The notes beneath the pieces are model-generated. The model was not told the origin of the DNA and did no database searches. It saw nothing but the letters and a program-made list of their open reading frames with translations. Shown in pieces: positions 13,208 to 38,966 of a stretch of DNA of 64,000 nucleotides. The number at the start of each line of letters is the position of its first letter. Position 1 is the stretch's first letter. Position numbers and translations under genes: made by a program. The stretch covers positions 1-64,000 of the forward strand of contig JAJPJF010000153.1 in the NCBI GenBank assembly GCA_021324415.1, given 5' to 3'. The stretch comes from Nostocales cyanobacterium Centralia_MAG_434 (GTDB taxonomy: Bacteria > Cyanobacteriota > Cyanobacteriia > Cyanobacteriales > Nostocaceae).

Positions 13208-14275
13208 TTAATGGGTGTAATACTCTGCTATTCTATGAGCGATCGCTCCCCATTCTTTGTTTTTATCAAAACATTGGCCGTAAGCAAATCCGCGAATAAC
13301 TGTGCTGTAGTCCACATCTTTCACTTTCCCAATCCGTCCTTTTTCCTGTCCACCAGTGCGGGTATTGCCCTCACGGCTAATTTTTCCAGAGGGTAAAATT
13401 CTTGCCTTTTCCCATGACAATGCTTTATCAATCATTGCTGTCACCTTTGACGAAAGTGAATCTTCCGGAAAATACTCCACCCAGCGCTGAGCATAGACAA
13501 CCCCTACCATTTGATAACTAGTGTCGGAACCACCTTTTTCTGGGTTGACACCATCTTTTTGCTGTAGTGCTAAACCATCCGCAAGTGATTGTTGGGCATA
13601 ATTGATCAATTCGCGATCGCCAGTGAGCTTTCCTGTCAGTCCTAAAGCTGTAGCCACAAGATAGCGACGATGGGTGTAAGGCTGATTGTTGTTGATTCCT
13701 CTTTCCCAAACTCGTGGAGAAATCATCCAACGAGCAGCGCGATGTACCAACGGTGTATATCGAGCAACTTCTTTAGCATACTCTTGTGCATGAGGAGATT
13801 GCTGTATGAATAGAAGTGTGTGAGCAACAGCTTGCACAAAAAAAGAGGTGCTGTGGAAAGGATCGCGTGTTCCAGAAAAACTGCCATCAGCAGCTTGATG
13901 GGCAAATCCCCAGTCAAACATCTTAAATCCTGCTTGAACAGCTTTTGGATTGTTTTTGATCAATCCGCCAATCACAAGTTGCTCTCCGTACCTTTGTTGT
14001 TCAATATACCAAGTTGGTGCCTGCTTATTTTCCCAAAGAACATTTGCACCATTAGCTCCACTAGGTGCCATTGACTTGTAATAACTAGGCAAGTGTTGGT
14101 AGAGAACATTAGCAATCAAATTGGTTGACTCACAATTATGATTGGTTTCTTGAGACAGTCGAGCCGAAACCTGACCATGATGGCTTTTCTGAAATTCTTT
14201 AGCTACTACTGTCGTAGTGATTGTGCCCAATGCCAGGCATAACAATGCTATCCCACTATATCTGCGAATCATCAC
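13208..14275 (-). CDS. Secreted protein, possible alpha/alpha-toroid fold
   Basis: 355 aa. Residues 1-25 form a signal peptide (MMIRRYSGIALLCLALG...VVA). The mature part is helical, with repeated aromatic and helix patterns (WYIEQQRYGEQLVIGGL, WGFAHQAADGSF, SFFVQAVAHTLLF, YLVATALGLTGKLTG) like (alpha/alpha)6 barrels of polysaccharide lyases and glycoside hydrolases. The segment DGSFSGTRDPFHSTS is suggestive of a sugar-processing site. I do not recognise a specific family, so enzymatic activity is inference. Single gene, about 160 bp from the divergent Uma2-family gene. Confidence 0.65.
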   Translation of the reverse strand: MMIRRYSGIALLCLALGTITTTVVAKEFQKSHHGQVSARLSQETNHNCESTNLIANVLYQHLPSYYKSMAPSGANGANVLWENKQAPTWYIEQQRYGEQLVIGGLIKNNPKAVQAGFKMFDWGFAHQAADGSFSGTRDPFHSTSFFVQAVAHTLLFIQQSPHAQEYAKEVARYTPLVHRAARWMISPRVWERGINNNQPYTHRRYLVATALGLTGKLTGDRELINYAQQSLADGLALQQKDGVNPEKGGSDTSYQMVGVVYAQRWVEYFPEDSLSSKVTAMIDKALSWEKARILPSGKISREGNTRTGGQEKGRIGKVKDVDYSTVIRGFAYGQCFDKNKEWGAIAHRIAEYYTH

Positions 14276-14434
14276 AAATTCCTTATCTCAATAACAGGGT
14301 ATAAAAGAATTCTCAACAAGGGAATACAAAAAACTTTGATCAAATCTTTTGTCCTTCATGTGTCAACGAAGACAATCAATAACGCGCTAACATGGAATCA
14401 TTATCTTTACTTAGTGAGTGAGATCCAAAAAATT

Positions 14435-15199
14435 ATGACGACAACCGGATTCTCAACCGCTTTTACTGAATCACCTGCAAGCTTACCTGACCATACTCAG
14501 TTGCCTGAGTCTGACGGCACCTTTGTGAAGAACTTCCAAGAACATCCTCAAAGCATCCTCTTAACCGATTCCATCACGCCAATCTTGCAGAAACTTCATC
14601 CAGATAACCAGTACTGCATTGGTCAAGATAGTGGCATTTACTGGCGGATGACAGAACCTCCCGAAAGAGGAGCCGAAGCACCAGATTGGTTTTATGTCCC
14701 CAATGTGCCGCCAACTCTCAAAGGTCAAATGCGACGATCTTATGTTTTGTGGCAAGAAATTGTTGCACCGTTGATTGTGCTGGAATTTGTCTCTGGAAAT
14801 GGAGACGAGGAGCGAGATAAAACTCCATTCGAGGGTAAGTTTTGGGTTTATGAGCAGGCTATTCGCGTACCTTTTTATAGTATGTACGAAGTGACTAAAG
14901 CCAAAGTAGAAGTTTATCATCATGTGGATGGATACTACTCCTTATTAACAGCAAATGAGCGTGGTCACTATGAAATTCCTGCTTTGGGTGTGGAATTGGG
15001 CATTTGGCAAGGTCTTTACCAGAATGTAGAGCTGCCTTGGTTGCGTTGGTGGGACTTGCAAGGTAATCTACTCTTGACTGGTGAAGAACGTGCTGAACAA
15101 GAACGCCAACGTGCTGAACAAGCAGAATCTTTATTAGAGAAAGAGCGGCTAAGAGCAGAACAGTTGGCAGAAAAACTTCGACAACTTGGGATTGAATAA
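14435..15199 (+). CDS. Uma2-family (DUF820) putative endonuclease with coiled-coil tail
   Basis: 254 aa from ATG 14435; an upstream TTG-initiated extension to 14336 lacks support. The Uma2 core (about residues 45-200) has the PD-(D/E)xK-like pattern APDWFYVPNVPP ... IVLEFVSGNGDEERD, with catalytic-type Asp and Glu. The last 40 residues are a highly charged heptad-like coiled coil (EERAEQERQRAEQAESLL). This variant is common and multicopy in filamentous cyanobacteria. Its cellular function is unknown; a restriction-like or transposon-related nuclease role has been proposed only from fold. Confidence 0.85.
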   Translation: MTTTGFSTAFTESPASLPDHTQLPESDGTFVKNFQEHPQSILLTDSITPILQKLHPDNQYCIGQDSGIYWRMTEPPERGAEAPDWFYVPNVPPTLKGQMRRSYVLWQEIVAPLIVLEFVSGNGDEERDKTPFEGKFWVYEQAIRVPFYSMYEVTKAKVEVYHHVDGYYSLLTANERGHYEIPALGVELGIWQGLYQNVELPWLRWWDLQGNLLLTGEERAEQERQRAEQAESLLEKERLRAEQLAEKLRQLGIE

Positions 15200-15219: not shown

Positions 15220-16206
15220 TTACGATTGGTTCTTCTTCTGTATAACTTGCTGAAATCCAGTAGAATCCAGAAGCAAGATGATAGATCCTGGCAAACTCAA
15301 CAGCCAACTTAAAGCTGTGATCACCAGAGATAGTAGTAGTGCTTGCTCAGCACTCAAACCAATACGACTAAATAAATAAACCCATAAACCTTCCTTAAGA
15401 CCCAACCCACCCAAAGAGATGGGGAGCAAAGTCACCACCACAATAATGGGAATAAACACTAAAAGCTCTAAATAAGAAATAGGAATTTTCAGTTGTTGCG
15501 CTACTAAGTAATGGTAATAAACTATAGCGAGTTGAAGTAATAATGACAGTCCCATTGACAAAGCTAGAGCTTGACGATGTTGAGCAAATTTTCGCAATAG
15601 GATTTGAATTTTGGCAAAACGCTCCGCCACTTTCCCAAGTCGAAACTTTTCTAACCAAGGCTCTGCCCAAATCAACAGTTTAGGACTTGATATTAGCAGC
15701 ACTGCTCCAACTAAGCTTGCTACGCAGGCAAGAAATAGCACAATAATATCCCAACGCCCAATGAGTTTAAAAGCTGGTGGGAGACCAATCAAAGCCAAAG
15801 CAGATAAAGCTGCTAAACCTGTAAATCGTTCTAGAAAGACAGAGACTAATGCCACTTCTGAATCTTTTGTTTGTTTAGCAACTCGATAAACTCGATAAAC
15901 ATCTCCGCCTAGAGCGCCAGGAAGAAAAATATTCAGAAACATCCCTGCAAAATAGCTACTTAGCAAACTGCCCATTGGTGCTGAATGGCCACTGCTGTTG
16001 AGAACGACCTGCCAGCGTACGCAGCTTAACCATTGACAACCTGTGTAGTAGAGTAAGGCAAAGATGATAAAAGGTAAAGAGAGATTTTTACACTGATTCC
16101 AGGCTTGATTGAAATCTATATGAGTGAATACTAATGCTAGTAGACATATACTGACAATAGTTTTTATCAATGTAATTGGCTTGATTTTCATATATCTTTT
16201 TGTCAT
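15220..16206 (-). CDS. Flippase-like membrane protein (LPG synthase TM domain family)
   Basis: 328 aa with about eight membrane helices. Family markers include LSSYFAGMFLNIFLPGALGGDVYRVYRV near residues 85-110 and LPISLGGLGLKEGLWVY near 265. This fold (UPF0104/AglD-like) is found in lysylphosphatidylglycerol synthase and in putative lipid-linked glycan transporters. Here it is the last gene of a glycan cluster, 12 bp behind the GT39-like gene, which favours a role in glycan or glycolipid transfer over aminoacyl-lipid synthesis; no aminoacyltransferase domain is present. Confidence 0.88.
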   Translation of the reverse strand: MTKRYMKIKPITLIKTIVSICLLALVFTHIDFNQAWNQCKNLSLPFIIFALLYYTGCQWLSCVRWQVVLNSSGHSAPMGSLLSSYFAGMFLNIFLPGALGGDVYRVYRVAKQTKDSEVALVSVFLERFTGLAALSALALIGLPPAFKLIGRWDIIVLFLACVASLVGAVLLISSPKLLIWAEPWLEKFRLGKVAERFAKIQILLRKFAQHRQALALSMGLSLLLQLAIVYYHYLVAQQLKIPISYLELLVFIPIIVVVTLLPISLGGLGLKEGLWVYLFSRIGLSAEQALLLSLVITALSWLLSLPGSIILLLDSTGFQQVIQKKNQS

Positions 16207-16218
16207 TAACCAAATTGA

Positions 16219-19200
16219 TTAGTAAGCTCCTAAATCTTTACCTTGAGTAGGTACTCGACTTGGCAATCCATCTTCTGGTTGCCATAAGCGTAAGCGAGCT
16301 CCAAATGAGTCTATGACTGGTTTTCCCAAGGTCTCCATATATTGCCAAGTTTTTGCTTGAAATCTCTTTTCTCTGGTGTCGTCCAAATGAATCCATACAC
16401 GTTTAGACTTTTCCAGCACATGAGTCATCTGATCTAGATTACTAACCACTACTGCACCAGCCCAGCGATCAATTAATCTACCATCATGCCAATATGTTGC
16501 ATCAAAATATCCAGTTCCCATGAGGAAATAATCTAAATGTCCTAAACCAATGACGGACAAAGATGGTAGAGGAGAAATAACAACATCTCCTGACTGCTTA
16601 TGAGCACGGATATATTCAAATACCTGGTCATTACGTCTATTAATAGACTCTTGATAGCCAGCTAAAGTCCTTACTGGTTCTAGATTGCCAAGCAACAGAA
16701 GAATTGCCATACTCAAGGCGATCGCTCTAAGTGGCAGTATATGCAGAACATCCTGCAATCTATTTCCTAAACTTTCTGTTATACAAATTGCACTATAAAT
16801 AGCCAAAAAAACAATTAGTGGATAAATAGCATAGCCATAACGTTCGGCTGTGTCATAACAAAGAATAGTGACGAGAATAACCTGCGAGATAACAAGACTA
16901 AATAAAAAGACTATTTTACGATCATTTAAAATGAGAAAGTAAATGAACCCTATGAGAAACAGTAGGGTATAGAGAACTTGCATCCTATCAGAGCCAACTA
17001 ATAAATTTGCAGCATAATTTGTGATATTTATAAAGTGAAGTCTCAGATAAGGAGCAGTACTATCGGCTATTGCTGGTGAAGGGGTCAAAAGTCGGATAGC
17101 CGCAAAACCTAAATCATAAATGAATATGATTAAAGTCATGAAGCTCCCTAAAAGAATTGACCAGTCTTTTCGTAATTCAAAAGGTCGATAGAAGTATAGG
17201 AATCCTACAAGAAAAGCTGGCAGTAGTGTTAAACTGATTTCTTGAGTGAGTAGAGTTAACGTGAGACTCACAAAAAATATGTGCTGATATTTTTTCCCTG
17301 CCTGCTCAATAAAACCTTTAAAAAATGCCCACAAAGAAAGAAGGCTCATGAATTGCTGAACCTGGTAAAACCGAATATAGCGAGAATACCAAATCTCCCA
17401 AGGGTTGATAGCCAACATAGCTGTAACCAGAAGAGCAACCCAAACTTTTCCCGTGACTGTGCGAACAAAAATATAAACTAGAATTAAAGTCGCTGTACCA
17501 ATTAATATAGATAGATATTTTGCATTAGTAATAGAATCTCCCACAAGCCTTAACCACAAGGCTAGAAAGTAGTGATAGAAAGGACCACGAGTGTACCAAA
17601 TTCCAGATGTGGCAATGGGTGCGCCAGTGTGAAGAATGCCTCGAGTAGCATCTAGAGAAGTATTCTCATCTGTATCCAAGTCCATGAAATTGAGGTTATA
17701 CACCCTCAACGCAAAACCAATGATAATAATTAGGATGAGTAATATTGACTCGCTCCAATTAGACCATTGTCGCTGTAGTCTTGTAGAATCTTTTGGTTGA
17801 TTTTTTGATTCTTGAATCCAGACAAAAGTGGAAGCAACAATTCCAGCAATAGCTGCTAGATACATAATGACAAAAATATTTGCCTGAGCCACCAAAGCTA
17901 AACTTGCATATGCAACTAAACCTAGTATGAGCCAAAGAAACCATTGAGTAAATTTTCGGTCGCCCCAAGTCCACTTTGTTAAAGACGAGATACTTGCATC
18001 ATGTACAGATTCTCCTTGTTTAGTCAGATGTCTATGAAGTTGAGGAAATCTGATGAGGTAAACAAGCAATGTTAATACAACACTGCCTGTAAATCCTAAC
18101 AGTATCAGGTAATTGCTTTGTGCTTGAGCAAATATCAGCCCAATTTCTGACTCTGCATAGCGGTGTTTGAGCAAACCAATGGCGACTAAAAAGAGAGTTC
18201 CTGGTGAGAGTATTGTTGCTCCTATGCTTAAGCTATCCCACAAATTCTCATGAGGCTTTAACCAAAAACCTAAAATCAAGGCATAAACAACAGCGAAGAT
18301 GACACCTCCCAATTGCCAAAGGCTTTGATGCCAAAGGTAATTGGGATAATTGAGTATATAAGCATTGCCTTCAAAACGCTTTTGCAAACTTTGTGGTTGG
18401 GGTAAACCAAGATAACTGACAGGTTGACCTTCACCCGCGCCTTCTGTCCAACCTGGTACGAGGTGGGTTAAAAACGCCCAGTGATTGTCAGTAGCGATCG
18501 CCCCAATAATCTTACCTGTGCTTGTCTGTGCCCATCCATCCAAGAAAAAGTGAACACCATCTGCTAAAGCTACACTTAGAGGATTAGCCAAACTTACAGC
18601 TAAAATATTCCTACCAGGATGTAGAAACTTGGTTACTTCTAACAGATGTAACTGATTGCTATCCTCAACTTTGTCATGTTTGATCAAAACACCATTGAGT
18701 AGTAAAGAATAATTACTGTTGCTAGCAAATCGAATATAGGCATGAGAGATTTCTGTTGATGGTATTTGCCATTGACCCCTGAGCCATACCTGTCCTTTAG
18801 AACTTTGCATTCCAGCGATCCAAGCTCCTTGCAGCGGACGTTCAAACAAATCTCTACTCAAACGGCTGTAAGTAGCTTCTGTCACTGGACCAAGTGTTTT
18901 GGCTTCTGACCAGTTAACATCAGGAAAATCTGGTGCAAACCATTGGAGTGATTCGTGAGTTTCTGACAAATTGGAGATTCGCCAAGAAGTGGTTCCAGTT
19001 GTTAGTGGAATGGGGTTAGCGTTAGCAACAGGATAAACAGCACCCTCAACGACTACACGCGGATTTGTTTGTCCTTTTTGAATTTCCAGCGCGATCACGT
19101 TTTTCCCTGGACGCAGCAATGAAACCAAATCGACATAGGTTGTTAGCTTCCAGTCTTTAGAGCTTGCAAGTAAATAATTTGCGGTCTCAGTTTGATAGTG

Positions 19201-19557
19201 ATTACTGTCATTAAAATTTTGTAATGGAGGGATCTTGATTCCTCCTGCTAAACCCAAAGAACTATTGAGCGCACTGTTTTCTCTCGCTACTAATCGTCCA
19301 TTGACATAAAGTTTAAAGTCATTATCAGCACTGAGGCGCAGCCAACCTACCTGCACAGTACCAGGTATCTCAAATGTATGACGGGCATAAAAACGATAAT
19401 TTGGCGATTGAGGAGCAATCCATTGAGCTTGTGGTGACCATACAACACGCTCAATAGATGTGGGTATCTTTTCCCAAATAGAAAAGCCCAACATTCCAAG
19501 TAAAAAACCCAATGTTAATACCAGGACTAATGATAGCCAACAATGTAATTGCTTCAT
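16219..19557 (-). CDS. GT39/ArnT-like membrane glycosyltransferase with two N-terminal lectin-like domains
   Basis: 1112 aa. After one membrane anchor (residues 5-28) come two beta-sandwich modules (about 40-200 and 245-345), each with the galactose-binding-like signature ADNDFKLYVNGRLV / SNSNYSLLLNGVLI and LLRPGKNVIALE / FLHPGRNILAVS, as in the N-terminal domains of alpha-L-rhamnosidases. A polytopic domain then follows; its GT-C-type catalytic loop is visible as LNFMDLDTDENTSLDATRG, and the next loop has YTRGPFYHYFLALWLRLVGD. Such enzymes transfer sugars from polyprenyl-phosphate donors outside the cytoplasm. Its start overlaps the stop of the TPR gene by four bases (ATGA), so the two are translationally coupled. 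The fusion is unusual. Confidence 0.85.
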   Translation of the reverse strand: MKQLHCWLSLVLVLTLGFLLGMLGFSIWEKIPTSIERVVWSPQAQWIAPQSPNYRFYARHTFEIPGTVQVGWLRLSADNDFKLYVNGRLVARENSALNSSLGLAGGIKIPPLQNFNDSNHYQTETANYLLASSKDWKLTTYVDLVSLLRPGKNVIALEIQKGQTNPRVVVEGAVYPVANANPIPLTTGTTSWRISNLSETHESLQWFAPDFPDVNWSEAKTLGPVTEATYSRLSRDLFERPLQGAWIAGMQSSKGQVWLRGQWQIPSTEISHAYIRFASNSNYSLLLNGVLIKHDKVEDSNQLHLLEVTKFLHPGRNILAVSLANPLSVALADGVHFFLDGWAQTSTGKIIGAIATDNHWAFLTHLVPGWTEGAGEGQPVSYLGLPQPQSLQKRFEGNAYILNYPNYLWHQSLWQLGGVIFAVVYALILGFWLKPHENLWDSLSIGATILSPGTLFLVAIGLLKHRYAESEIGLIFAQAQSNYLILLGFTGSVVLTLLVYLIRFPQLHRHLTKQGESVHDASISSLTKWTWGDRKFTQWFLWLILGLVAYASLALVAQANIFVIMYLAAIAGIVASTFVWIQESKNQPKDSTRLQRQWSNWSESILLILIIIIGFALRVYNLNFMDLDTDENTSLDATRGILHTGAPIATSGIWYTRGPFYHYFLALWLRLVGDSITNAKYLSILIGTATLILVYIFVRTVTGKVWVALLVTAMLAINPWEIWYSRYIRFYQVQQFMSLLSLWAFFKGFIEQAGKKYQHIFFVSLTLTLLTQEISLTLLPAFLVGFLYFYRPFELRKDWSILLGSFMTLIIFIYDLGFAAIRLLTPSPAIADSTAPYLRLHFINITNYAANLLVGSDRMQVLYTLLFLIGFIYFLILNDRKIVFLFSLVISQVILVTILCYDTAERYGYAIYPLIVFLAIYSAICITESLGNRLQDVLHILPLRAIALSMAILLLLGNLEPVRTLAGYQESINRRNDQVFEYIRAHKQSGDVVISPLPSLSVIGLGHLDYFLMGTGYFDATYWHDGRLIDRWAGAVVVSNLDQMTHVLEKSKRVWIHLDDTREKRFQAKTWQYMETLGKPVIDSFGARLRLWQPEDGLPSRVPTQGKDLGAY

Positions 19558-20975
19558 TGTTGCTCTTGCTCCTTTAATGGCGATTTACCCCAAGTTTTCA
19601 TATCTACTGATTGGCGATAACGTTCCCAAGTTTTGTTAACATCACCACTTTGATATTCAGCCCAGGCTAAATGTAGATAGGCTTGCCCGAGTAGACCGAT
19701 TTTCTGCTCTTGAAAATATTGCTGTTCGTCTATAATTTGTTTTGCCACAGCAGCTGATTTTTGGAATTCTCCATTCACAACCCTAGCTAACATAAGGTCA
19801 TAAAGAGCCTCCATATGACCTGGAAATATTGCTAATACTCTTTCAAACATGTCTGCTGCTGCTGCTGGCTTACGGTTATCGGAGTTATTTAAATAATCCA
19901 CGCCCTGATTGAGTATTGCTGTTGCTAAGTATCCCCTAAATAAAAATTGACTAGAATTGCTTTCAAATGATTTTCGCAAATAATTTTCAGCAGATGAAAA
20001 ATCACTATTTTTATAGTACTCAAGTCCCTTAACAAAGTTAATTAAAGGAGGATCAGAGATTTCTGCATAAAACTCTGCCTTTCCTAAGCGCTCTAAAAAA
20101 GAAACATTCCCTTGCAAGGCTGGATACAATCTTATTAAAATTTTACTGGTATTAACAACTTGAGAATACTCACCTTTAGCAAACTGAGTATCAATTTTGT
20201 AGTTAATAATATTGACTCCAATAGTTGATACTAAAATAACAGTAATTAATACAAGTATTCCTGGAGTTAATTTAATAATATCTATAAAAAAATAATTTTT
20301 CCAATTATTTTCTTCTTTTGAACTATTTAGTCTAGGTAATGTAGAATCAACTACAGAGTTTTCATGGGCTCCTAAATAAAATCCAATTAAGCTAATAACT
20401 AATCCAAAAAGAGTAAAAATCCAACCTTTACCAATAAACGTAAAAAAGCTATTTTTATAACCCAAACCATCTAGCAAAACTTTATCCCATGACGATAATT
20501 GAAAAAAACGGCTATCGGGAATTGACATGCTTAAATTCGCTGGTGGTAGTTCTGGGTTATCTAAAAAGATTTTTTGTTTCCATTGTGCTTGAACTTTTGG
20601 GAAATTTTGATCTACATGATCTGATACAGTTTCTCCTTGCTCATAATAAGATGAAGCTAAAAAAGCTACGGTTGGAGACCAAGTAACAATGAAGTAAGGG
20701 AAAAGTAAGGTGAAGATTAAGCTCATCAAAAAAATTAGGCGAGGAGCTCGCCTAACTATAAAATTTAAAGAGAAAGCTAAACCTATGAAGGCTAATAAAG
20801 CAGCTAATAACCTACCAACATTGGTGACGAATAGGTTAGTTTCAAATGCTTTTAAAGACTGTGGCGGCAACTGATACCAAGGATATATGACTCCTACAAA
20901 TAAAACTAAAACTCCAACCCAAAGAGTTAGTTTTTCTCGCTTAAAAAGGTGTTGCCAGCGGCACAATATTCTCAT
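19554..20975 (-). CDS. Membrane protein with C-terminal TPR-like repeats
   Basis: 473 aa. Hydrophobic helices at about 18-32, 54-75, 80-105, 180-205 and 235-255; a polar loop at about 108-175; and a soluble C-terminal third (from about 275) built of helix pairs such as FVKGLEYYKNSDFSSAENYLRKS and MFERVLAIFPGHMEALYDLMLARV that look like TPRs. Its role is unknown. Coupling to the GT39-like gene by a 4-bp overlap implies a partner function, for instance a scaffold or chain-length factor for the same glycan. I do not see a ligase or polymerase signature. Confidence 0.75.
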   Translation of the reverse strand: MRILCRWQHLFKREKLTLWVGVLVLFVGVIYPWYQLPPQSLKAFETNLFVTNVGRLLAALLAFIGLAFSLNFIVRRAPRLIFLMSLIFTLLFPYFIVTWSPTVAFLASSYYEQGETVSDHVDQNFPKVQAQWKQKIFLDNPELPPANLSMSIPDSRFFQLSSWDKVLLDGLGYKNSFFTFIGKGWIFTLFGLVISLIGFYLGAHENSVVDSTLPRLNSSKEENNWKNYFFIDIIKLTPGILVLITVILVSTIGVNIINYKIDTQFAKGEYSQVVNTSKILIRLYPALQGNVSFLERLGKAEFYAEISDPPLINFVKGLEYYKNSDFSSAENYLRKSFESNSSQFLFRGYLATAILNQGVDYLNNSDNRKPAAAADMFERVLAIFPGHMEALYDLMLARVVNGEFQKSAAVAKQIIDEQQYFQEQKIGLLGQAYLHLAWAEYQSGDVNKTWERYRQSVDMKTWGKSPLKEQEQQ

Positions 20976-21058: not shown

Positions 21059-22705
21059 TTACGATGAGAATGTTGCTTGTTGATCCATAAAATCTGGTTG
21101 TACAGCAATAGAAGAACTTGAGTTTTGATACGTTCGCTGCTCAGGGAAGCCGTTTTGAGTGTTATCCTGTTGGTAAAAACTCAGTGGAGTAGAAGTATCA
21201 TTGGCTGTTTTGATAGCATGAGTATCCAGTACATCTCCGGGATTTAAGCCTGTGGGATAGAGAACTACCTGCTCTCCAGGCTGCAAGCCTTCTAACACTT
21301 CCCTTTGGTTATCAACTGTTCTCCCAAGCTTCACTTTCTTCACAACAGCTTTGTTGCCTTCTGAAACCATAACCATACCTTCACCAGCCGACAAATGGGT
21401 AACAGAGCTTTCGGGAACGACTAAATTTGACTGGTTTTGAGCAAATTGTACATAACCTTGCAATCCAGGAGGCATTTGCAGATCATTAACAGCAACCCAC
21501 ACAGAATATGTGTACTGTCGGTCAACGCCTACTTTGGGTTGAGCCGTATCTGTTGCAACTGTGGGGTTAAGTTGGATCACTCGTCCTTGGAAGGTACGTC
21601 CAGGATATGCTACTAAACGAATTGTTGCCTGATCGCCTACCTTGATGGCGTTAAGTCGCGCTTGATCAACATAAGCCTTAAAGACAATATTCTGACTCAG
21701 AGTCATTACAGAAGCGCGATCGCGAACATCGATAATTTCTCCACTATGAATATTGACCTTACTGACTAAACCATCAGTACTGGCATAAATAACGGTTCTA
21801 CTTAAGTCTCTTGCTGCCTGCTGTAATTCTATTTTTCTGTTTTCTACCAAAAGACGAGCATCTGCCAAGTCTTTATCTAAGCTCTTCTGAGCAATTTCCA
21901 AAGCTTGTTGTGCAGAGATCAGCTCATTTTGCCGAGTGAGATAAAAATCTTGATTGCTAAATTGCTGGGTTTGAGTGTTTAGAACTCCTTGTTGAGCCTC
22001 TAGGAGTTCTTTTTTACGACTGGCATAAGTATCTTGAATGTCATATAGCTGAAACTTAGACATAGCTCCCTGCTGAGCTAACAGTTTGACTTGTCGTAGT
22101 TTTTGTTCAGCCGTTTTTAATCTTGCCTGACTAGCCTCAATATTACTATCTAGCTCTTGCTGTGCCAGAGTGTTAATTTTTGCAAGCCTGGTTTTAGCTT
22201 CTTCCATCCTTGCTTGAGCAGATGTTACATTCTGCTTCAAGGTTAGCAACCTTTGAGGTGCTGAATTTTGTAAAGTCTGTAAGTTTTTTTGTGCAGTCGC
22301 AAGGTTATTGCGAGCTGTGGTCACCTGATCTTGAAAAGGAGCTTGTTGTAACTCTAGTAGAGGTTGACCTCGATGCACCCACTGTCCTTCTGCAACATAA
22401 ACTTTTTCTACTGGTCCCGATACGAGTGAACGGACTTCTACCTGTTGCATAGCCACAGATTCACCAGGTGCTGCCACACCCTCTTCTAAAGTCTTTGCCG
22501 CTACTTCTACAGTTTGGACTTTGATCGGTTGACCCAAGCTTCTTTGCACAGCTGGGTAACCTATAGCCGAAGAGTAAAATCTTGACTCTGGATCTTTGAG
22601 AGCTGGCAAAAGAACGGTAATCGACAAAACCCCTATTGCACCCAAGGGAGCTGCGGTGAGAGTCGTTAGAACTGCACGGGATAGTAAAAACTCACGAGTC
22701 AGCAT
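21059..22705 (-). CDS. HlyD/RND-type periplasmic adaptor protein
   Basis: 548 aa. One N-terminal membrane segment (about 14-33), a lipoyl-like half-motif (SLVSGPVEKVYVAEGQWVHRGQPLLEL), a long coiled-coil hairpin (about 125-300, rich in Gln/Ala/Lys heptads), a second lipoyl half (VIYASTDGLVSKVNIHSGEIIDV) and a beta-barrel region from about 340. Adaptors bridge an inner-membrane ABC or RND pump to an outer-membrane channel. No pump or channel gene lies beside it, so its partner must be elsewhere. It starts 17 bp after the GT4 gene ends, within the glycan operon, which suggests export of the glycan or glycolipid. Confidence 0.88.
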   Translation of the reverse strand: MLTREFLLSRAVLTTLTAAPLGAIGVLSITVLLPALKDPESRFYSSAIGYPAVQRSLGQPIKVQTVEVAAKTLEEGVAAPGESVAMQQVEVRSLVSGPVEKVYVAEGQWVHRGQPLLELQQAPFQDQVTTARNNLATAQKNLQTLQNSAPQRLLTLKQNVTSAQARMEEAKTRLAKINTLAQQELDSNIEASQARLKTAEQKLRQVKLLAQQGAMSKFQLYDIQDTYASRKKELLEAQQGVLNTQTQQFSNQDFYLTRQNELISAQQALEIAQKSLDKDLADARLLVENRKIELQQAARDLSRTVIYASTDGLVSKVNIHSGEIIDVRDRASVMTLSQNIVFKAYVDQARLNAIKVGDQATIRLVAYPGRTFQGRVIQLNPTVATDTAQPKVGVDRQYTYSVWVAVNDLQMPPGLQGYVQFAQNQSNLVVPESSVTHLSAGEGMVMVSEGNKAVVKKVKLGRTVDNQREVLEGLQPGEQVVLYPTGLNPGDVLDTHAIKTANDTSTPLSFYQQDNTQNGFPEQRTYQNSSSSIAVQPDFMDQQATFSS

Positions 22706-22713
22706 TGTTGAAT

Positions 22714-22741
22714 AGTTATCAGTTATCGGTTATCAGTTATC
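22714..22741. repeat. 7-bp short tandem repeat (AGTTATC)4
   Basis: Four consecutive units, AGTTATC or GGTTATC. The repeat overlaps the end of the GT4 gene and supplies its last residues and stop, so the extreme C-terminus of that protein is repeat-encoded. Confidence 0.85.
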
Positions 22742-23955
22742 AATTCACGGTTAACTGCCAAGTGACCATTCAAGGCCCTAGTAAAAACATGCTCCCACAA
22801 GGGGATAATCCGTGACCAGCTAAACCGTAGTTGGATATCTGCCAAACCTTTTTGTCCCATTTCTTGAGCTTTGATAGGATCATTGAGTAATGATAAGATA
22901 GCTTGTGCTAAAGCTTTTGGATCTTTCTGTGGTACCAGCAATCCTGTAATTCCCGATTGGATGACATCAATAATACCCCCTACAGCACTGGCAATCACGG
23001 GCTTTTGGTGGGCTAAAGCTTCTATCATGACAATTCCCAAACCCTCTGTGTCACCTTTGCTATCTATAATAGCTGGCAATACAAAGATATCGCACCCAGC
23101 ATATTGATCAGCTAGTTCTTCTTTACTCACAAAACCTAGGAACTGTACATAGTTGTTCAGACCCATTGATTGGCACTGCAATTTGATTTCCTCCTCAAGA
23201 ATTCCCTTACCCACAACATGTAAACTTACAGGTTGTTGATCTAGAACTAAAGGCAGAGCTTCCAATAGATATCGTAAACCTTTACGTTCATCTAACCTAC
23301 CGACAAATAGAAGTTTAGGAATTTCCTCTGGAGAACGAGTTTTCGGTGGTTTAGCCTCAATTGTTAGACCATACGGGATAATAGTCACTGGTCCATTGTA
23401 AAGCTTACGAATCAGTGTGCAAGTATAAGACGAGTTGGCTGTCACACCTTTGGCAATGGGTAACAACCACCGCAGGATACTGGCAACAAAGCCAAACTTA
23501 TTTGCTAGCAATAATTCGGCTCCATGGAAACTAAATACCATTGGAATACCTAGCAGAAAGCTGGCAGGTAAAGCCATTAATCCATGAGGGAAAGGCCAAT
23601 GAATTTGGAGTAAATCTGGCTTTTGTTTGCGGCATACCCAAAATAATTGCAATGAACCCAGAAAGATATATAGTGCTGCAACTAGCAAATAAAGAGGTTG
23701 CCTTTGTAGTTTAGTAGGAGCACCGTCCCGTGCCAAATTCTCAAAACGTTTCGGACAGTAGCGAAAGCGATAAACTTGAATACCATCCAATACATAGCTT
23801 TTAGACGCTTCGTAAGCAGGAGCAAATACTGTAAATTTTGCAACCTTTGATTGTAAACGTAAATTTGCTTCTCTTATGAAAGCTCCATGATTTCCATCAG
23901 CCGTCATCGGATAGACTGAAGTAACGACTAAGATATGTTTGTTCTGAAGAGTCAT
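22723..23955 (-). CDS. Glycosyltransferase family 4
   Basis: 410 aa from the ATG at 23955; an upstream in-frame ATG at 23982 is possible. GT-B fold with N-terminal acceptor-side motif DGNHGAFIREANLRL and FSFHGAELL near the domain junction, and the GT4 donor-site motifs KLLFVGRLDERKGLRYLLEAL, VLPAIIDSKGDTEGLGIVMIEALAHQKPVIAS with the EX7E-type pair. A retaining transferase using a nucleotide sugar at the cytoplasmic membrane face; specificity unknown. Lies between a GT2 and an adaptor gene in one minus-strand operon. Confidence 0.93.
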   Translation of the reverse strand: MTLQNKHILVVTSVYPMTADGNHGAFIREANLRLQSKVAKFTVFAPAYEASKSYVLDGIQVYRFRYCPKRFENLARDGAPTKLQRQPLYLLVAALYIFLGSLQLFWVCRKQKPDLLQIHWPFPHGLMALPASFLLGIPMVFSFHGAELLLANKFGFVASILRWLLPIAKGVTANSSYTCTLIRKLYNGPVTIIPYGLTIEAKPPKTRSPEEIPKLLFVGRLDERKGLRYLLEALPLVLDQQPVSLHVVGKGILEEEIKLQCQSMGLNNYVQFLGFVSKEELADQYAGCDIFVLPAIIDSKGDTEGLGIVMIEALAHQKPVIASAVGGIIDVIQSGITGLLVPQKDPKALAQAILSLLNDPIKAQEMGQKGLADIQLRFSWSRIIPLWEHVFTRALNGHLAVNRELITDNR

Positions 23956-24024
23956 AGGCTGGAAACAGTGATGAGGGGTCATGGAGCATAGGAATTGTCT
24001 GAGCTATTCTCAATAATCTCCTAC

Positions 24025-24891
24025 TTAATGAGTTGAACTCTTACTACTCGTTAAGTCTCTAATCTCAATAGGTTGTCTTGGATAAAAACTGGAATAATTG
24101 GTTGCTACATTTATTTGTTTTTGAGCACTTTGCTGAGTTATTTGACGACCCTCAGTGATAAACCACCACCATAATTTTGTGAAATCGATCGCCGAAGTCA
24201 CAAGGCGTCCTTTGCCAAATTTACTTTTTCCAGAATAACGAGCATGCCAAGGAGTGGGAGTTTCTGTGATGCGATATCCCTGTGCTGCTAGTATTGCTAA
24301 CAGATAGCGGTGTGTGATTCTTTCAATAGGCAAGTTTAATAGTATGTCACGACGAACTAGTTTAATCCAATTCATGTCGTGAATGTTTAACCCGAAGACC
24401 AAACGACAAGCCAAGTTAGCAATCAAAGATGCAAAGATTTTGCCATCTCCACGTTTTTGCCGCCAGCCTGCAACTGCGTCTACTCCAGAATCACACGCTT
24501 TTAATAGTAATGGTAAGTCAGTCCGAGGATCAGACTCTAGATCAGCTTGTCCCCAAAATATCCAATCAGTTTTGACATGGACTAAAGCTGTCTTCCACAC
24601 TTCAGTAACACCACGTCTTTTAGGATGACGAATGACTCTCAAAAAGTCATATTTCTTGCTCAACTGGGCGAGAATAATTGGACTATTATCTGTACTGCCA
24701 TCATCAATTACAATAACTGGTAAGGTAAAACCGAGATCCTGGAACGTTTCCTCCAAACTTAGTAGGAGCTTCTCTAAATTACCTTCCTCATTCAACGCTG
24801 GAATGACTACTGTAACGGAACGACTCTGATATGCGGGCTTTAACGCAAATCGCGAGTTATGTTCCTGATGAGCATATTTTTTGTCAAACAT
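24025..24891 (-). CDS. Glycosyltransferase family 2 (polyprenyl-phosphate sugar synthase-like)
   Basis: 288 aa. GT-A motifs are clear: VTVVIPALNEEGNLEKLL, VIVIDDGSTDNS and the metal-site-like QADLESDPRTDLP, followed by a region with DMNWIKLVRRDIL, as in dolichyl-phosphate mannose synthase-type enzymes. Unlike many bacterial relatives it has no pair of C-terminal membrane helices. First gene of the six-gene block; the GT39-like product three genes downstream would need exactly such a polyprenyl-phosphate sugar, which makes a donor-synthesis role attractive but unproven. Confidence 0.88.
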   Translation of the reverse strand: MFDKKYAHQEHNSRFALKPAYQSRSVTVVIPALNEEGNLEKLLLSLEETFQDLGFTLPVIVIDDGSTDNSPIILAQLSKKYDFLRVIRHPKRRGVTEVWKTALVHVKTDWIFWGQADLESDPRTDLPLLLKACDSGVDAVAGWRQKRGDGKIFASLIANLACRLVFGLNIHDMNWIKLVRRDILLNLPIERITHRYLLAILAAQGYRITETPTPWHARYSGKSKFGKGRLVTSAIDFTKLWWWFITEGRQITQQSAQKQINVATNYSSFYPRQPIEIRDLTSSKSSTH

Positions 24892-25919: not shown

Positions 25920-26981
25920 TCAGGAATAAATCTTCTGGTAATACGCTTGATATTCGTCTGATAATAAAGGTTCCCACCAATCGCGGTGATGAAGGTACCA
26001 TTCAACAGTGAGGCGTAGACCCTCTTGTATGGTCACTGACGGTGACCAACCTAAGTGAGTTTTCATCTTAGTCGCGTTAATCGCGTATCTCCGATCATGT
26101 CCTGGTCTATCTTTGACAAACGTAATCAAATCTGACGTAGGACGTACGAGTAGACTGGGTGCGAGTTCGTCCATGAGAAGGCACAACATCTGCACTAAAG
26201 TAATATTTTCTACCTCATTATTGCCACCAATATTATAAGTTTCTCCTGGTATGCCAAAATGAATCACCCTATCTAAAGCAGTGCAATGGTCACCCACATA
26301 CAACCAATCCCGAACATTTTTGCCATCACCATATACTGGTAATTGCTTACCTATGAGAGCATTAATACACATTAAGGGAATTAACTTTTCTGGAAACTGA
26401 TAGGGACCATAATTATTGGAGCAATTTGTGATGATTGCTGGTAGTCTGTAAGTATGGTAATATGAACGTACTAAATGATCACTACCAGCTTTAGAAGCTG
26501 AATAAGGACTATTAGGAGCGTAAGATGTCGTTTCGGTGAAAGGAGGGTCATTAGGACCAAGACTACCGTAAACTTCATCAGTAGAAACGTGAAGAAAACG
26601 ATAATAATCTGGCTTTAATGTGACCTCCCAATGCTGACGGAAAGCCTCTAGCAAAGTGAAAGTTCCTACCACATTTGTTTGTACAAAAGCACTAGGTCCT
26701 AAAATCGAGCGATCTACATGGGATTCAGCAGCAAAGTGGGCAATCGTGTCAATGTTTTCCGTTTGTAGTATCTGATCTATAACAGCGCGATCGCAAATAT
26801 TTCCCTGTACAAAGCGAAAATTCTCTCGTCCCTCAAGAGCAGCTAAATTACAGCGGTTTCCTGCATAGGTGAGAGCATCCAAGACAACAACTTGATCATT
26901 CGGATAAGTGCGACACCAGTGGTGCACAAAATTTGAACCAATAAACCCCGCACCACCGGTCACTAGCAATCGATGATTCAT
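25920..26981 (-). CDS. rfbB: dTDP-glucose 4,6-dehydratase
   Basis: 353 aa from ATG 26981. Extended SDR enzyme with NAD-binding TGGAGFIGSNF at the N-terminus, HFAAESHVDRS, STDEVYGSLG, and the catalytic YSASKAGSD (Tyr-x3-Lys). It converts dTDP-glucose to dTDP-4-keto-6-deoxyglucose, the precursor of dTDP-rhamnose and other deoxysugars for surface glycans. Further downstream sites (NNYGPYQFPEKLIP, DRPGHDRRYAI) match RfbB. The companion rfbA, rfbC and rfbD are not here. Separated by 44 bp from the upstream kinase gene. Confidence 0.97.
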   Translation of the reverse strand: MNHRLLVTGGAGFIGSNFVHHWCRTYPNDQVVVLDALTYAGNRCNLAALEGRENFRFVQGNICDRAVIDQILQTENIDTIAHFAAESHVDRSILGPSAFVQTNVVGTFTLLEAFRQHWEVTLKPDYYRFLHVSTDEVYGSLGPNDPPFTETTSYAPNSPYSASKAGSDHLVRSYYHTYRLPAIITNCSNNYGPYQFPEKLIPLMCINALIGKQLPVYGDGKNVRDWLYVGDHCTALDRVIHFGIPGETYNIGGNNEVENITLVQMLCLLMDELAPSLLVRPTSDLITFVKDRPGHDRRYAINATKMKTHLGWSPSVTIQEGLRLTVEWYLHHRDWWEPLLSDEYQAYYQKIYS

Positions 26982-27025
26982 CAAAATACACTCCTCTTGG
27001 CGCTTTTTGCCTTATGAACAGGTTG

Positions 27026-28054
27026 TTAACTTTCTTCTAACAACGCATGTAATGCCATCTTCATTTCTATTGGTGTTGTCGTTGTTGTCCCAAATTGACG
27101 CACTACAATGCTAGCGGCTAAATTACCTAAAACTGCTGCCTCCCAAGCTGATGCGCCAGACGTTAGACCTAGAGTCAAGGCTGCTGCAACAGTATCCCCT
27201 GCACCTGTAACATCAAACACCTCTGTCCTGTTAAAAGCTGGAATATGATGTTCACTTCCAGCACGGTTGAATAAACTCATCCCTTGCTCACCACGAGTGA
27301 TCAAAACATACTGTGCTTGTGTCAATGCTATGAGATCACTTCCTGCTTGAGTTAAACTCACATCATCGGTAATCTTATAGCCTACAGCAAGTTCTGCTTC
27401 GGGGAGATTAGGGGTAAATAACGTTGCTCCTTGATATCGTTCCAAATGCTTTTGGGCATCTACTATTGTCCGAGGAGCAGACAAAGCCGCTGCAATAACA
27501 GGCTGAGTTAAGGTTCCATCACCATAGTCGGAACATATGACGGCATCTACTGAATGGCTTTGCTCTTTAGTGTATTCGGCTAGTTGTAATTGCAAATCCA
27601 TATCTGGTAACTCATCTGATTTTCGGTCTATCCGAACTATTTGCTGAGTTACTGATTGACGTGAATGACCAGAAATTCGTGTTTTAGTAACTGTTGGGCG
27701 ATGTGGATCAATAAGAACACCATCAGTATTGACCCCAGCTGCTTCTAACAAACCGCGTAACGCCTTTCCCTGATCATCTTTGCCTAAAAGTCCCACAGCC
27801 AAAACCTTAGCTCCCAACTGGGCAAAGTTATAAACTGCATTTGCCCCACCGCCTGGTACTTGCTTAGTAGTTTCATGACGGAGAATTAAGACTGGTGCTT
27901 CCCTGGAAATTCTTTCTACCTGACCAGTCAAAAACTCGTCTAAAGTCAAATCTCCAATCACAAGCACCCGTGCTTCGGTGAATCGTTCTAGCAGATAAAA
28001 TAATCGGTCAGCTGAGGCATGTAACTGAATCTTGAACGCAGAGTCTAAAGTCAT
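27026..28054 (-). CDS. PfkB-family kinase, D-glycero-beta-D-manno-heptose-7-phosphate kinase-like (HldE N-domain)
   Basis: 342 aa. Ribokinase-fold signatures: KQVPGGGANAVYNFAQLGAKV and the C-terminal DVTGAGDTVAAALTLGL (anion hole and catalytic Asp). The opening VLVIGDLTLDEFLTGQVERISREAPV is characteristic of RfaE domain I, which phosphorylates heptose 7-phosphate at C1 in ADP-heptose synthesis. The nucleotidyltransferase domain found in fused HldE is absent, so a separate hldC-like gene would be needed. Located with rfbB, consistent with supply of nucleotide sugars for envelope polymers. Confidence 0.85.
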   Translation of the reverse strand: MTLDSAFKIQLHASADRLFYLLERFTEARVLVIGDLTLDEFLTGQVERISREAPVLILRHETTKQVPGGGANAVYNFAQLGAKVLAVGLLGKDDQGKALRGLLEAAGVNTDGVLIDPHRPTVTKTRISGHSRQSVTQQIVRIDRKSDELPDMDLQLQLAEYTKEQSHSVDAVICSDYGDGTLTQPVIAAALSAPRTIVDAQKHLERYQGATLFTPNLPEAELAVGYKITDDVSLTQAGSDLIALTQAQYVLITRGEQGMSLFNRAGSEHHIPAFNRTEVFDVTGAGDTVAAALTLGLTSGASAWEAAVLGNLAASIVVRQFGTTTTTPIEMKMALHALLEES

Positions 28055-37331: not shown

Positions 37332-37576
37332 AGATTAATGGTAGCGTATATGGTATCTGATTTTTAAAATACACCCAAGGTAAGTAGTGCCTATCAAAAC
37401 CTGGATATAGTGAACTTGATATAACAGGCATTGCCCACTCTACGCTACTACCAACTGTTAACTATCACAAATAATTTTTTTTACCAACCAGAAGCCACAA
37501 TTACAACTGGTACGCAAAGCAGATTGAGAAGTGTCTGTAGTCTTCTTCTGGTTCCTCATGAGTTAGTTAAGTTTAT

Positions 37577-37604
37577 TCCTAACTCCTCACTCCTAACTCC
37601 TCAC
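37577..37604. repeat. 14-bp tandem direct repeat
   Basis: Two exact copies of TCCTAACTCCTCAC end 6 bp before the ATG of the glycosyltransferase gene. The upstream in-frame extension of that gene reads through this repeat and is therefore judged non-coding. Confidence 0.8.
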
Positions 37605-37610
37605 TTTTAT

Positions 37611-38888
37611 ATGACCCACTTCGGCATCATTTGTCCTGCTACGACTGGGCATCTCAACCCCATGCTAACCTTGGGTTACGAACTACAACGGCGCGGTCAT
37701 CGTGTCACTTTATTTGGTGTGGTTGATGTTCAGACTAAGACACTGCAAGCAGGATTGGAATTTCGGGCGATTGGTGAGTCTGAGTTTCCCAAAGGAGCGA
37801 TCGCACAACACTTGGCTTACTTGGGGAAACTGAGTGGACTTGCAGCATCTGGATATACTATCAAAATTCTCAAACAGACAGCAGCAGTTACTCTTCGAGA
37901 CGTGCCAAAAACAATCAAACAAGTCGGTGTGGAAGCATTGTTAGTGGACCAGGTTTCCTTCGAAGGAGGAACGATCGCAGAGTTTTTGGACATTCCTTTT
38001 ATTACTATTTGTAGCGCATTGGTATTACATCAAGAAGATAGCATTCCTCCACATTTCACAAACTGGCGCTACACTTCAGCCTTGTGGGCACGCTTACGCA
38101 ATAGTACGGTTTACAGGCTACTGAGTCTTGCACAAATCATGGGTGATGTGATACTGGAGTATCGTCGAGAGTGGAAGTTACCAAAACTCACTCGTTACAA
38201 CGATGGCTATTCTCAACTAGCTCAGATCAGTCAACAGCCTGCTGAGTTTGAATTCCCTAGGCAACATTTGCCCCCATGGTTTCACTTTACAGGACCATTG
38301 CACAGTTCGATTGGTCGCGAAACTGACACTTTCCCATATGAACAATTGACTGGGCAACCATTGATTTATGCCTCTATGGGAACCACACAAAACCGTCTTT
38401 TGAAGATTTTCTCCTCTATTGCAGAAGCTTGCAATGGGTTAGACGCTCAATTAGTCATTTCACTTGGTGGTTCCCTGACTGTTGAATCTCTGCCAAGGTT
38501 ACCGGGTTCACCCTTGGTTGTTGGTTATGCACCTCAACTAGAACTCCTAAAGAAAACGACTCTAACGATCACCCACGCTGGACTGAATACCACCTTGGAA
38601 TCTTTAACTAATGGAGTGCCTATGGTTGCCATTCCGATTGCCAATGATCAACCAGGAGTGGCGGCGCGTATAGCTTGGACTGGGACTGGAGAATTTATAC
38701 CCGTGTCTCGCTTGAGTGTTCCCAAAATGCGAGCAGCCATACACCGAGTGCTGACACAAGCCTCTTACAAGCAAAATGCCCTAAGGCTACAAGAGGCGAT
38801 TCGTCGAACTGGAGGAGTGAGTCGAGCTGCTGATGTGGTTGAACAAGCTATCTCCACTGGCAAGCCTGTCCTTTCTAGCGCCGACTAA
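37611..38888 (+). CDS. UGT-like glycosyltransferase (GT1, MGT-type)
   Basis: 425 aa from ATG 37611 (MTHFGIICPATTGHLNPML). GT-B fold: N-terminal GHLNPM acceptor loop and C-terminal donor-site region VGYAPQLELLKKTTLTITHAGLNTTLESL ... GVPMVAIPIANDQPGVAARI, which matches the UGT signature (His-Ala-Gly and final Asp-Gln). Resembles bacterial macrolide and carotenoid glucosyltransferases such as CrtX. Acceptor is unknown; carotenoid or other lipids are plausible in this phylum. It precedes a convergent P450 gene; no co-expression is implied. Confidence 0.88.
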   Translation: MTHFGIICPATTGHLNPMLTLGYELQRRGHRVTLFGVVDVQTKTLQAGLEFRAIGESEFPKGAIAQHLAYLGKLSGLAASGYTIKILKQTAAVTLRDVPKTIKQVGVEALLVDQVSFEGGTIAEFLDIPFITICSALVLHQEDSIPPHFTNWRYTSALWARLRNSTVYRLLSLAQIMGDVILEYRREWKLPKLTRYNDGYSQLAQISQQPAEFEFPRQHLPPWFHFTGPLHSSIGRETDTFPYEQLTGQPLIYASMGTTQNRLLKIFSSIAEACNGLDAQLVISLGGSLTVESLPRLPGSPLVVGYAPQLELLKKTTLTITHAGLNTTLESLTNGVPMVAIPIANDQPGVAARIAWTGTGEFIPVSRLSVPKMRAAIHRVLTQASYKQNALRLQEAIRRTGGVSRAADVVEQAISTGKPVLSSAD

Positions 38889-38966
38889 TTTAGGAAACTT
38901 AATTCAGTTTCAATTTGTATGCTTTACGACGCAATTCTAGTTAGCAATCCTGAAAGATGCTACTAT

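Follow-up and report, generated by a model that had tools for sequence, protein, structure and literature searches.

A cyanobacterial GT-C transferase fused to two CBM67/rhamnosidase-type modules and its conserved operon

We analysed a 64,000-nucleotide stretch of DNA (the window: positions 1–64,000 of the forward strand of contig JAJPJF010000153.1, assembly GCA_021324415.1) from Nostocales cyanobacterium Centralia_MAG_434, in which one open reading frame (ORF) encodes a membrane transferase of 1112 amino acids with an ATG start. The protein joins a glycosyltransferase core of the GT-C fold to two beta-sandwich modules of the rhamnosidase type, the first of which, as judged from alignments, is like the carbohydrate-binding module (CBM) family CBM67 and carries an Asp–Asn pair, while the second appears to be a diverged copy without the pair. 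Its gene is part of a conserved operon. We give slightly better than even weight to the view that this operon encodes a transmembrane glycosylation system of three components in which the GT-C enzyme carries its own acceptor-binding lectin. The transferase is laid out as follows.

16219..19557, minus strand: GT-C transferase with two CBM67/rhamnosidase-type beta-sandwich modules (ORF, Pfam, NCBIfam, AlphaFold2, Foldseek and VIA-align)
19474..19554, minus strand: N-terminal transmembrane (TM) helix, residues 2–28 (AlphaFold2 helix 2–28; hydropathy peak 9–27, 2.29)
18838..19452, minus strand: module 1, residues 36–240, CBM67-like beta-sandwich (profile against the PDB, 3w5m; AlphaFold2)
19321..19326, minus strand: D78–N79 of the SADN motif in module 1 (aligned with D179–N180 of SaRha78A)
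18364..18822, minus strand: module 2, residues 246–398, beta-sandwich homologous to module 1 (hhalign; 3w5m match)
17788..18348, minus strand: TM helices and linker, residues 404–590, with an invariant KHR at 464–466 (alignment, AlphaFold2, hydropathy)
16600..17787, minus strand: GT-C core, residues 591–986 (VIA-align; PMT_2)
17665..17670, minus strand: D630–E631 acidic pair behind the first core helix (family alignment)
16222..16599, minus strand: C-terminal alpha/beta domain, residues 987–1112 (AlphaFold2)

The AlphaFold2 model calculated from a 29-sequence alignment (mean predicted local distance difference test score, pLDDT, of 71 and predicted template-modelling score, pTM, of 0.59) begins with one helix, which is followed by the two beta-sandwiches, the TM helices, the helical core and, at the C-terminus, a small alpha/beta domain; module 1 lies mostly at pLDDT 71–90, except for the loop 95–135, and the confidence is low in the linker (pLDDT <50 at 505–595). 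The top Foldseek matches of the model are, in order, SaRha78A (3w5m, E 5.4e-14), the Pleurotus ostreatus lectin (6t1d, 1.1e-11) and ArnT (5ezm, 2.3e-8), the TM-scores of the lectin-side matches over the whole model being low (0.12–0.13), with the two modules spanned at another mutual angle. In VIA-align, residues 36–234 superimpose on a domain of the fungal rhamnosidase AtRha (6gsz) with Z 16.0 and a root-mean-square deviation (rmsd) of 3.3 over 160 aligned residues, and residues 39–391 on residues 134–472 of SaRha78A with Z 18.1 and an rmsd of 16.2, which is large because two domains with a different mutual angle are spanned. The sequence-only reading had described two rhamnosidase-N-type beta-sandwiches fused to a GT-C domain, and this fusion is borne out by the predicted structure, by Foldseek and VIA-align, by PMT_2 and by PF08531 in the family; both the galactose-binding-like fold and the GT-C fold were obtained, neither being absent from the prediction.

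The family models agree with this layout at different strengths. In Pfam, PMT_2 (PF13231) matches residues 657–813 of the window protein above its curated cut-off (32.7 versus 26.1 bits), and no match of PF08531 (Bac_rhamnosid_N) to this protein was found at E<=1; among the family members scanned singly, PF08531 is matched by 25 of 29 at E<=0.1 (best 9.5e-6), Glyco_hydro_2_N by 11 of 29 and PMT_2 by 27 of 29 at E<=0.1. The only NCBIfam match of the window transferase at E<=1 is the rhamnosidase model NF041573 (the presence of an ArnT model in the library was not checked), which covers the N-terminal half with E 4e-14, with 51.4 bits against its own cut-off of 1720 and with residues 131–233 as the best stretch. 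The (alpha/alpha)6 catalytic domain of GH78 is absent from the transferase, NF041573 staying far below its cut-off and the C-terminal half having the GT-C fold. A phmmer search of the PDB with the full-length protein gave no match.

Profile searches connect the modules to a known lectin-like module. The module-1 profile, built from 29 sequences, finds SaRha78A (3w5m) among PDB sequences with a whole-sequence E of 1.8e-6, and the SADN of module 1 falls over the identical four letters in SaRha78A, with D78–N79 on chain positions 179–180. We take D179 and N180 of SaRha78A to be the residues by which CBM67 binds Ca2+ and rhamnose. At this place D78 is invariant (29/29) and N79 is present in 26 sequences, the pair reading DN in 26 and DH in three, among sequences ranging down to 41% identity. 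By hhalign, the two modules are homologs (97.2%, E 4.4e-11), and the module-2 profile also finds 3w5m (E 5.2e-6); at the aligned place in module 2, 280–281, none of the 29 sequences has DN, the window protein has N–S and position 281 is mostly G (21/29). Going by the alignments, one site would thus have been kept in module 1 and the other lost, or never gained, in module 2. The CBM67 of SaRha78A is reported to bind rhamnose in a Ca2+-dependent manner (PMC4690510), and related fungal lectins are reported to use a conserved adjacent acidic pair for Ca2+ and for the sugar (PMC11512411). The cyanobacterial module resembles both the SaRha78A CBM67 and the Pleurotus ostreatus lectin in combining a beta-sandwich with an adjacent D–N or D–D pair; unlike these, of which the former is part of a glycoside hydrolase and the latter is free, it forms part of a transferase.

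The core is recognised as GT-C by its fold. Residues 599–972 superimpose on Pmt4 (9i5l) with Z 27.2 and an rmsd of 3.3 over 337 aligned residues, and the core matches the oligosaccharyltransferase OST (6s7o) with Z 26.6 and ArnT (5f15) with Z 22.4 (rmsd 5.1, 431 aligned). The DxDEN loop reported from the sequence was located at residues 628–632; PMT_2-type GT-C glycosyltransferases carry an acidic DE pair as a motif in their first extracytoplasmic loop, and here D630 is invariant (29/29) and E631 is present in 26 members, with A in the other three. R639, R657, R726, R729, Q772, E773, R906 and Y907 are each found in 29/29. The three members with A at 631 (L057:4446-8003, L058:9920-13966 and L060:6092-9379) form one supported clade (100/100), which may be a separate functional branch. 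Two of them, L057 and L058, have repeat-like inserts in module 2, and L058 has one in the linker as well. The GT-C part had been placed from residue 430 onwards; the GT-C core is indeed there, starting at about residue 591, and the region before it has hydrophobic peaks at five places (413, 445, 484, 539 and 561 in the window protein), for which AlphaFold2 gives five long helices between the modules and the core. Counting these five peaks and the first helix of the core, the modules and the DE loop come to lie on one side of the membrane, the outer one. An extracytoplasmic position of the modules, as proposed earlier, is therefore likely from the topology of the window protein, although a crude count of hydrophobic peaks is odd in 19 of 29 members and even in ten.

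The fusion is a real, old and patchily spread cyanobacterial protein family, in line with the suggestion that it may define a distinct enzyme family; both the fusion and its operon are conserved. Relatives covering both halves occur in 4 of 59 related genomes (own genome excluded), with eight more giving only weak core matches, and 8 of 386 sampled cyanobacterial genomes (own included) match at E<=1e-20; combined, the two sets give full-length relatives in eight other cyanobacterial genomes. A scan with two peptide patterns over one genome per each of 84,980 species returned 27 loci, all cyanobacterial by record title, five of them identical in contig and length to records from the eight other genomes; the full-length frame is present in 25 of the 27 and the remaining two are cut by contig ends. 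Non-cyanobacterial chromosomes were covered by the pattern scan alone, by which distant relatives could be missed. Carriage on plasmids was rejected, since 72,556 plasmid records gave no tblastn match at E<=1e-5. Of 373 cyanobacterial genomes, 7 (own included) contain module 1, each time in a frame of 1059–1121 residues, at most eight candidates being scored per genome (G410, which carries the gene, was undrawn or missed). In a set of 30 genomes the core was matched at E<=1e-10 in four, always within such a long frame.

Three further explanations were considered and rejected. A chance fusion among paralogs does not fit the own genome, in which only one of 13 PMT_2 places, the fusion gene, has a frame of >1100 residues and the other 12 have 420–651. 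An assembly or annotation artefact is contradicted by the frame, which is open without inner stops in the eight other genomes and in 25 of the 27 named loci. A resident rhamnosidase as the source of the modules was not found, PF08531 exceeding its cut-off in 0 of 60 genomes and giving a single weak match, which lies inside a transferase ortholog.

In total, 31 distinct loci were available, the window included, and 29 sequences entered the family alignment (A2); L059 and L062 were left out, their contigs ending inside the gene, and L030 and L033–L036 were dropped as copies of L049, L043, L046, L051 and L061. Alignment A4 additionally omits L058, which has a long insert. Some rows are close relatives (L044/L055, L050/L051, L056/L061), and the counts are of sequences and not of independent events.

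The genes around the transferase are arranged on the minus strand in the order GT2, GT4, HlyD/RND-type adaptor, TPR protein, transferase and PF03706 protein, with a toroid protein beyond an opposite-strand ORF.

24025..24891, minus strand: GT2 glycosyltransferase, polyprenyl-phosphate-sugar synthase type by its PDB homologs
22723..23982, minus strand: GT4 glycosyltransferase (PF00534 E 4.7e-43)
21059..22705, minus strand: HlyD/RND-type periplasmic adaptor (PF16576 E 6.3e-18; TIGR01730 above cut-off)
19554..20975, minus strand: TPR-repeat membrane protein (TPR_16 E 3.8e-8; five hydrophobic peaks)
15220..16206, minus strand: PF03706/TIGR00374 flippase-like membrane protein (PF03706 E 4.2e-42; TIGR00374 above cut-off)
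13208..14275, minus strand: putatively exported (alpha/alpha) toroid protein (hydrophobic N-terminus 7–25; AlphaFold2 pLDDT 84.7, pTM 0.83)

This order was followed over the 30 other distinct loci, flanks that end too early being set aside as non-observable. The flippase-like gene is on the same strand downstream in 27 of 28 observable loci (behind the GT4 gene in L057 and L060 and behind a 2.1-kb insert in L052), the adaptor is present in 23 of 26 and the GT4 gene in 24 of 25. In 26 of the 30 loci the TPR gene precedes the transferase on the same strand, and in the window it overlaps the transferase start by 4 bp. The GT2 gene is nearby in 20 of the 30, in 16 of these upstream on the same strand. 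Its nearest solved relatives are ArnC (8vxh, 8.8e-16), DPMS (5mlz, 9.7e-14) and sll0501 (5eke, 2.8e-7), the last of which we take to be GtrB; by homology, the GT2 component of three-component systems appears to be present. Among the genes neighbouring the transferase, the flippase candidate belongs to PF03706/TIGR00374, the described types being GtrA, Wzx, MATE and SMR.

The toroid protein occurs in 15 of the 30 other loci, two at just 24–26% identity. No Pfam family reaches its cut-off and neither Foldseek (E<=0.001) nor phmmer against the PDB gives a match; VIA-align gives Z 21.3 to a 2-epimerase and Z 17.8 to the alginate lyase AlgL (4ozv). The likeness, to 2-epimerases, GH105 enzymes, unsaturated glucuronyl hydrolases and AlgL, is one of fold only: since the VIA-align matches differ in function and Foldseek is empty, only the fold class is claimed. 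The toroid alignment (A5) has 16 rows, with the copies L046, L049 and L061 omitted and the L050 protein represented by its first part alone. In L050 (1905-4364) the homolog lies in an 819-residue frame in which GGxGxD-type repeats extend over a long stretch; the repeats, which we take to be RTX-like, suggest that this protein may be secreted.

Several other features of the neighbourhood are recorded here. The opposite-strand ORF between the flippase-like and toroid genes (14336-15199, plus strand) is presumably Uma2/DUF820-like. In L042:13394-15130 the frame of the flippase-like gene continues into a C-terminal part some 250 residues long, which by eye is like the separate ORF L038:14400-15185 and which we assume to be a methyltransferase; L041, L044, L046, L047 and L055 have ORFs of 256–267 residues in the same place. 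Upstream of the operon, 25920-28054 on the minus strand holds a dTDP-glucose 4,6-dehydratase (above cut-off) and a heptose-7-phosphate-kinase-domain protein (at cut-off); the dehydratase was examined at the window locus only, and thus no link to rhamnose is claimed. At 37431-40361, a macrolide-type glycosyltransferase on the plus strand (MGT model, below cut-off) has a minus-strand cytochrome-P450-like gene as its neighbour.

In treating modules of this kind as foreign to these enzymes, the sequence-only reading went too far. CBMs are found on the GT-C enzymes EmbA/B/C, AftD and the GT136 enzyme ORF12 (PMC11127046), and GT-C enzymes with extracellular carbohydrate-binding domains are also mentioned in PMC8035078. 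The closest likeness is to ORF12 of Citrobacter youngae O1, a three-component pentofuranose system in which a GT-C enzyme has a fused acceptor-binding CBM, this CBM binding the unmodified O antigen acceptor, and in which a polyprenyl-linked donor is synthesised and flipped by the partner proteins (PMC11127046). Unlike in the cyanobacterial fusion, the CBM of ORF12 is C-terminal (residues 503–652) and is described as immunoglobulin-like, and the system has a phosphoribosyl-type donor synthase and a MATE flippase; adaptor, TPR and toroid genes are not described in the portion of that paper available (PMC11127046). The mycobacterial EmbA/B/C and AftD are likewise GT-C enzymes with carbohydrate-binding domains that contact the acceptor (PMC11127046). 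EmbB (6x0o) matches the present core with Z 17.3. The Emb and AftD enzymes presumably have other CBMs, and they use arabinofuranosyl donors. With ArnT and the protein O-mannosyltransferases (PMTs) the cyanobacterial protein has the GT-C core in common (Z 22–27), and it differs from them in the two CBM67-type modules. Eukaryotic PMTs (GT39) carry MIR domains; the MIR family is not among the Pfam matches of the window transferase at E<=1. Since CBM-bearing GT-C enzymes are already known, the fusion is not new in kind; the new elements are a CBM67-type lectin on a GT-C enzyme, the cyanobacterial family and the operon. In the literature searched no description of the fusion or of the operon was found, which does not prove that none exists.

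In the scheme that we favour, the GT2 enzyme would load a sugar onto polyprenyl phosphate on the cytoplasmic side, the PF03706 protein would carry the polyprenyl-linked sugar across the membrane, and the GT-C core, with D630 as the presumed acidic catalytic residue, would probably pass it to a surface glycan. As in the sequence-only reading, we infer that the modules serve to hold the acceptor: module 1, outside the membrane, would do so via a Ca2+ ion bound by D78 and N79, and module 2, as a diverged copy, may space or brace module 1. The adaptor, the TPR protein and the exported toroid protein may handle or trim the glycan. The data above establish the domain architecture and its conservation, the conserved pair and the operon, whereas donor, acceptor, flippase role, Ca2+-dependent binding and the sequence of events are inferences.

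Several observations weigh against this scheme. The best single stretch of the module-1 profile match to 3w5m reaches an i-Evalue of only 0.023, and the lectin POL is matched by this profile merely with E 0.08. At 10 of 30 loci a GT2 gene is missing or beyond view; the window GT2 itself has no C-terminal hydrophobic peak, whereas ArnC and GtrB presumably have C-terminal TM helices. The flippase role of the PF03706 protein is suggested by its family name, and phmmer against the PDB found no solved relative of this protein. With its moderate confidence, the model does not fix where the modules lie with respect to the active site, and the crude peak count is even in 10 of 29 members. In addition, the three E631A members have no homolog of the TPR protein or the adaptor nearby (E<=1e-8), while still keeping DN.

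That last clade bears also on an alternative that we regard as possible though unlikely, in which the modules have lost sugar binding and serve as a structural scaffold, either docking the transferase to the TPR protein or the adaptor or mediating dimerization. A scaffold would accord with the loss of the pair in module 2, with a TPR gene that overlaps the transferase gene or lies <=10 bp from it in 24 of the 26 loci having a TPR gene, and with the CBM of ORF12, which was dispensable under the tested conditions (PMC11127046), a finding that also weighs against the favoured scheme. The near-invariance of D78 and N79 down to 41% identity, including in the three members whose surroundings lack TPR and adaptor homologs, is what a scaffold does not explain. 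Rather improbable, in our view, is a PMT-like protein O-glycosyltransferase, whose acceptor would be an exported protein and whose modules would recognise an already glycosylated protein. Pmt4 and Pmt1–Pmt2 are indeed the top fold matches of the core (Z 27), and Pmt1 is the sole PDB sequence that the core profile matches at E<=1 (E 0.0063); however, the OST and ArnT cores score nearby (Z 22–27), so that the fold is silent on the acceptor, and the operon partners resemble glycan-assembly genes. A polymerase or ligase acting on a lipid-linked oligosaccharide, instead of a single-sugar transferase, seems very improbable: the OST, PglB and AglB cores match well (Z 19–27) and the Agl23 model TIGR03663 (cut-off not displayed) gives matches at E<=0.01, the best at 1e-12, in 20 of the 29 members, the window protein being unmatched, whereas the polyprenyl-monophosphate type of the GT2 points to a single-sugar donor and the Pfam match is PMT_2 and no OST family.

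Returning to the three-component reading, it can be extended to a broader proposal that we put forward as speculation and consider doubtful: a Ca2+-dependent CBM67 lectin on a GT-C enzyme would belong to a self-contained cyanobacterial envelope-glycan system in which outside Ca2+ and acceptor sugars gate decoration, the PF03706 protein would be a new kind of polyprenyl-sugar flippase, and the adaptor and TPR protein would export the product for trimming by the toroid protein. If the three-component reading is true, some cyanobacteria would possess a testable set of enzymes for decorating surface glycans outside the membrane, in which acceptor binding would be controlled by a single residue pair (D78–N79) and a single ion (Ca2+), and the PF03706 family would gain a defined transport role to test.

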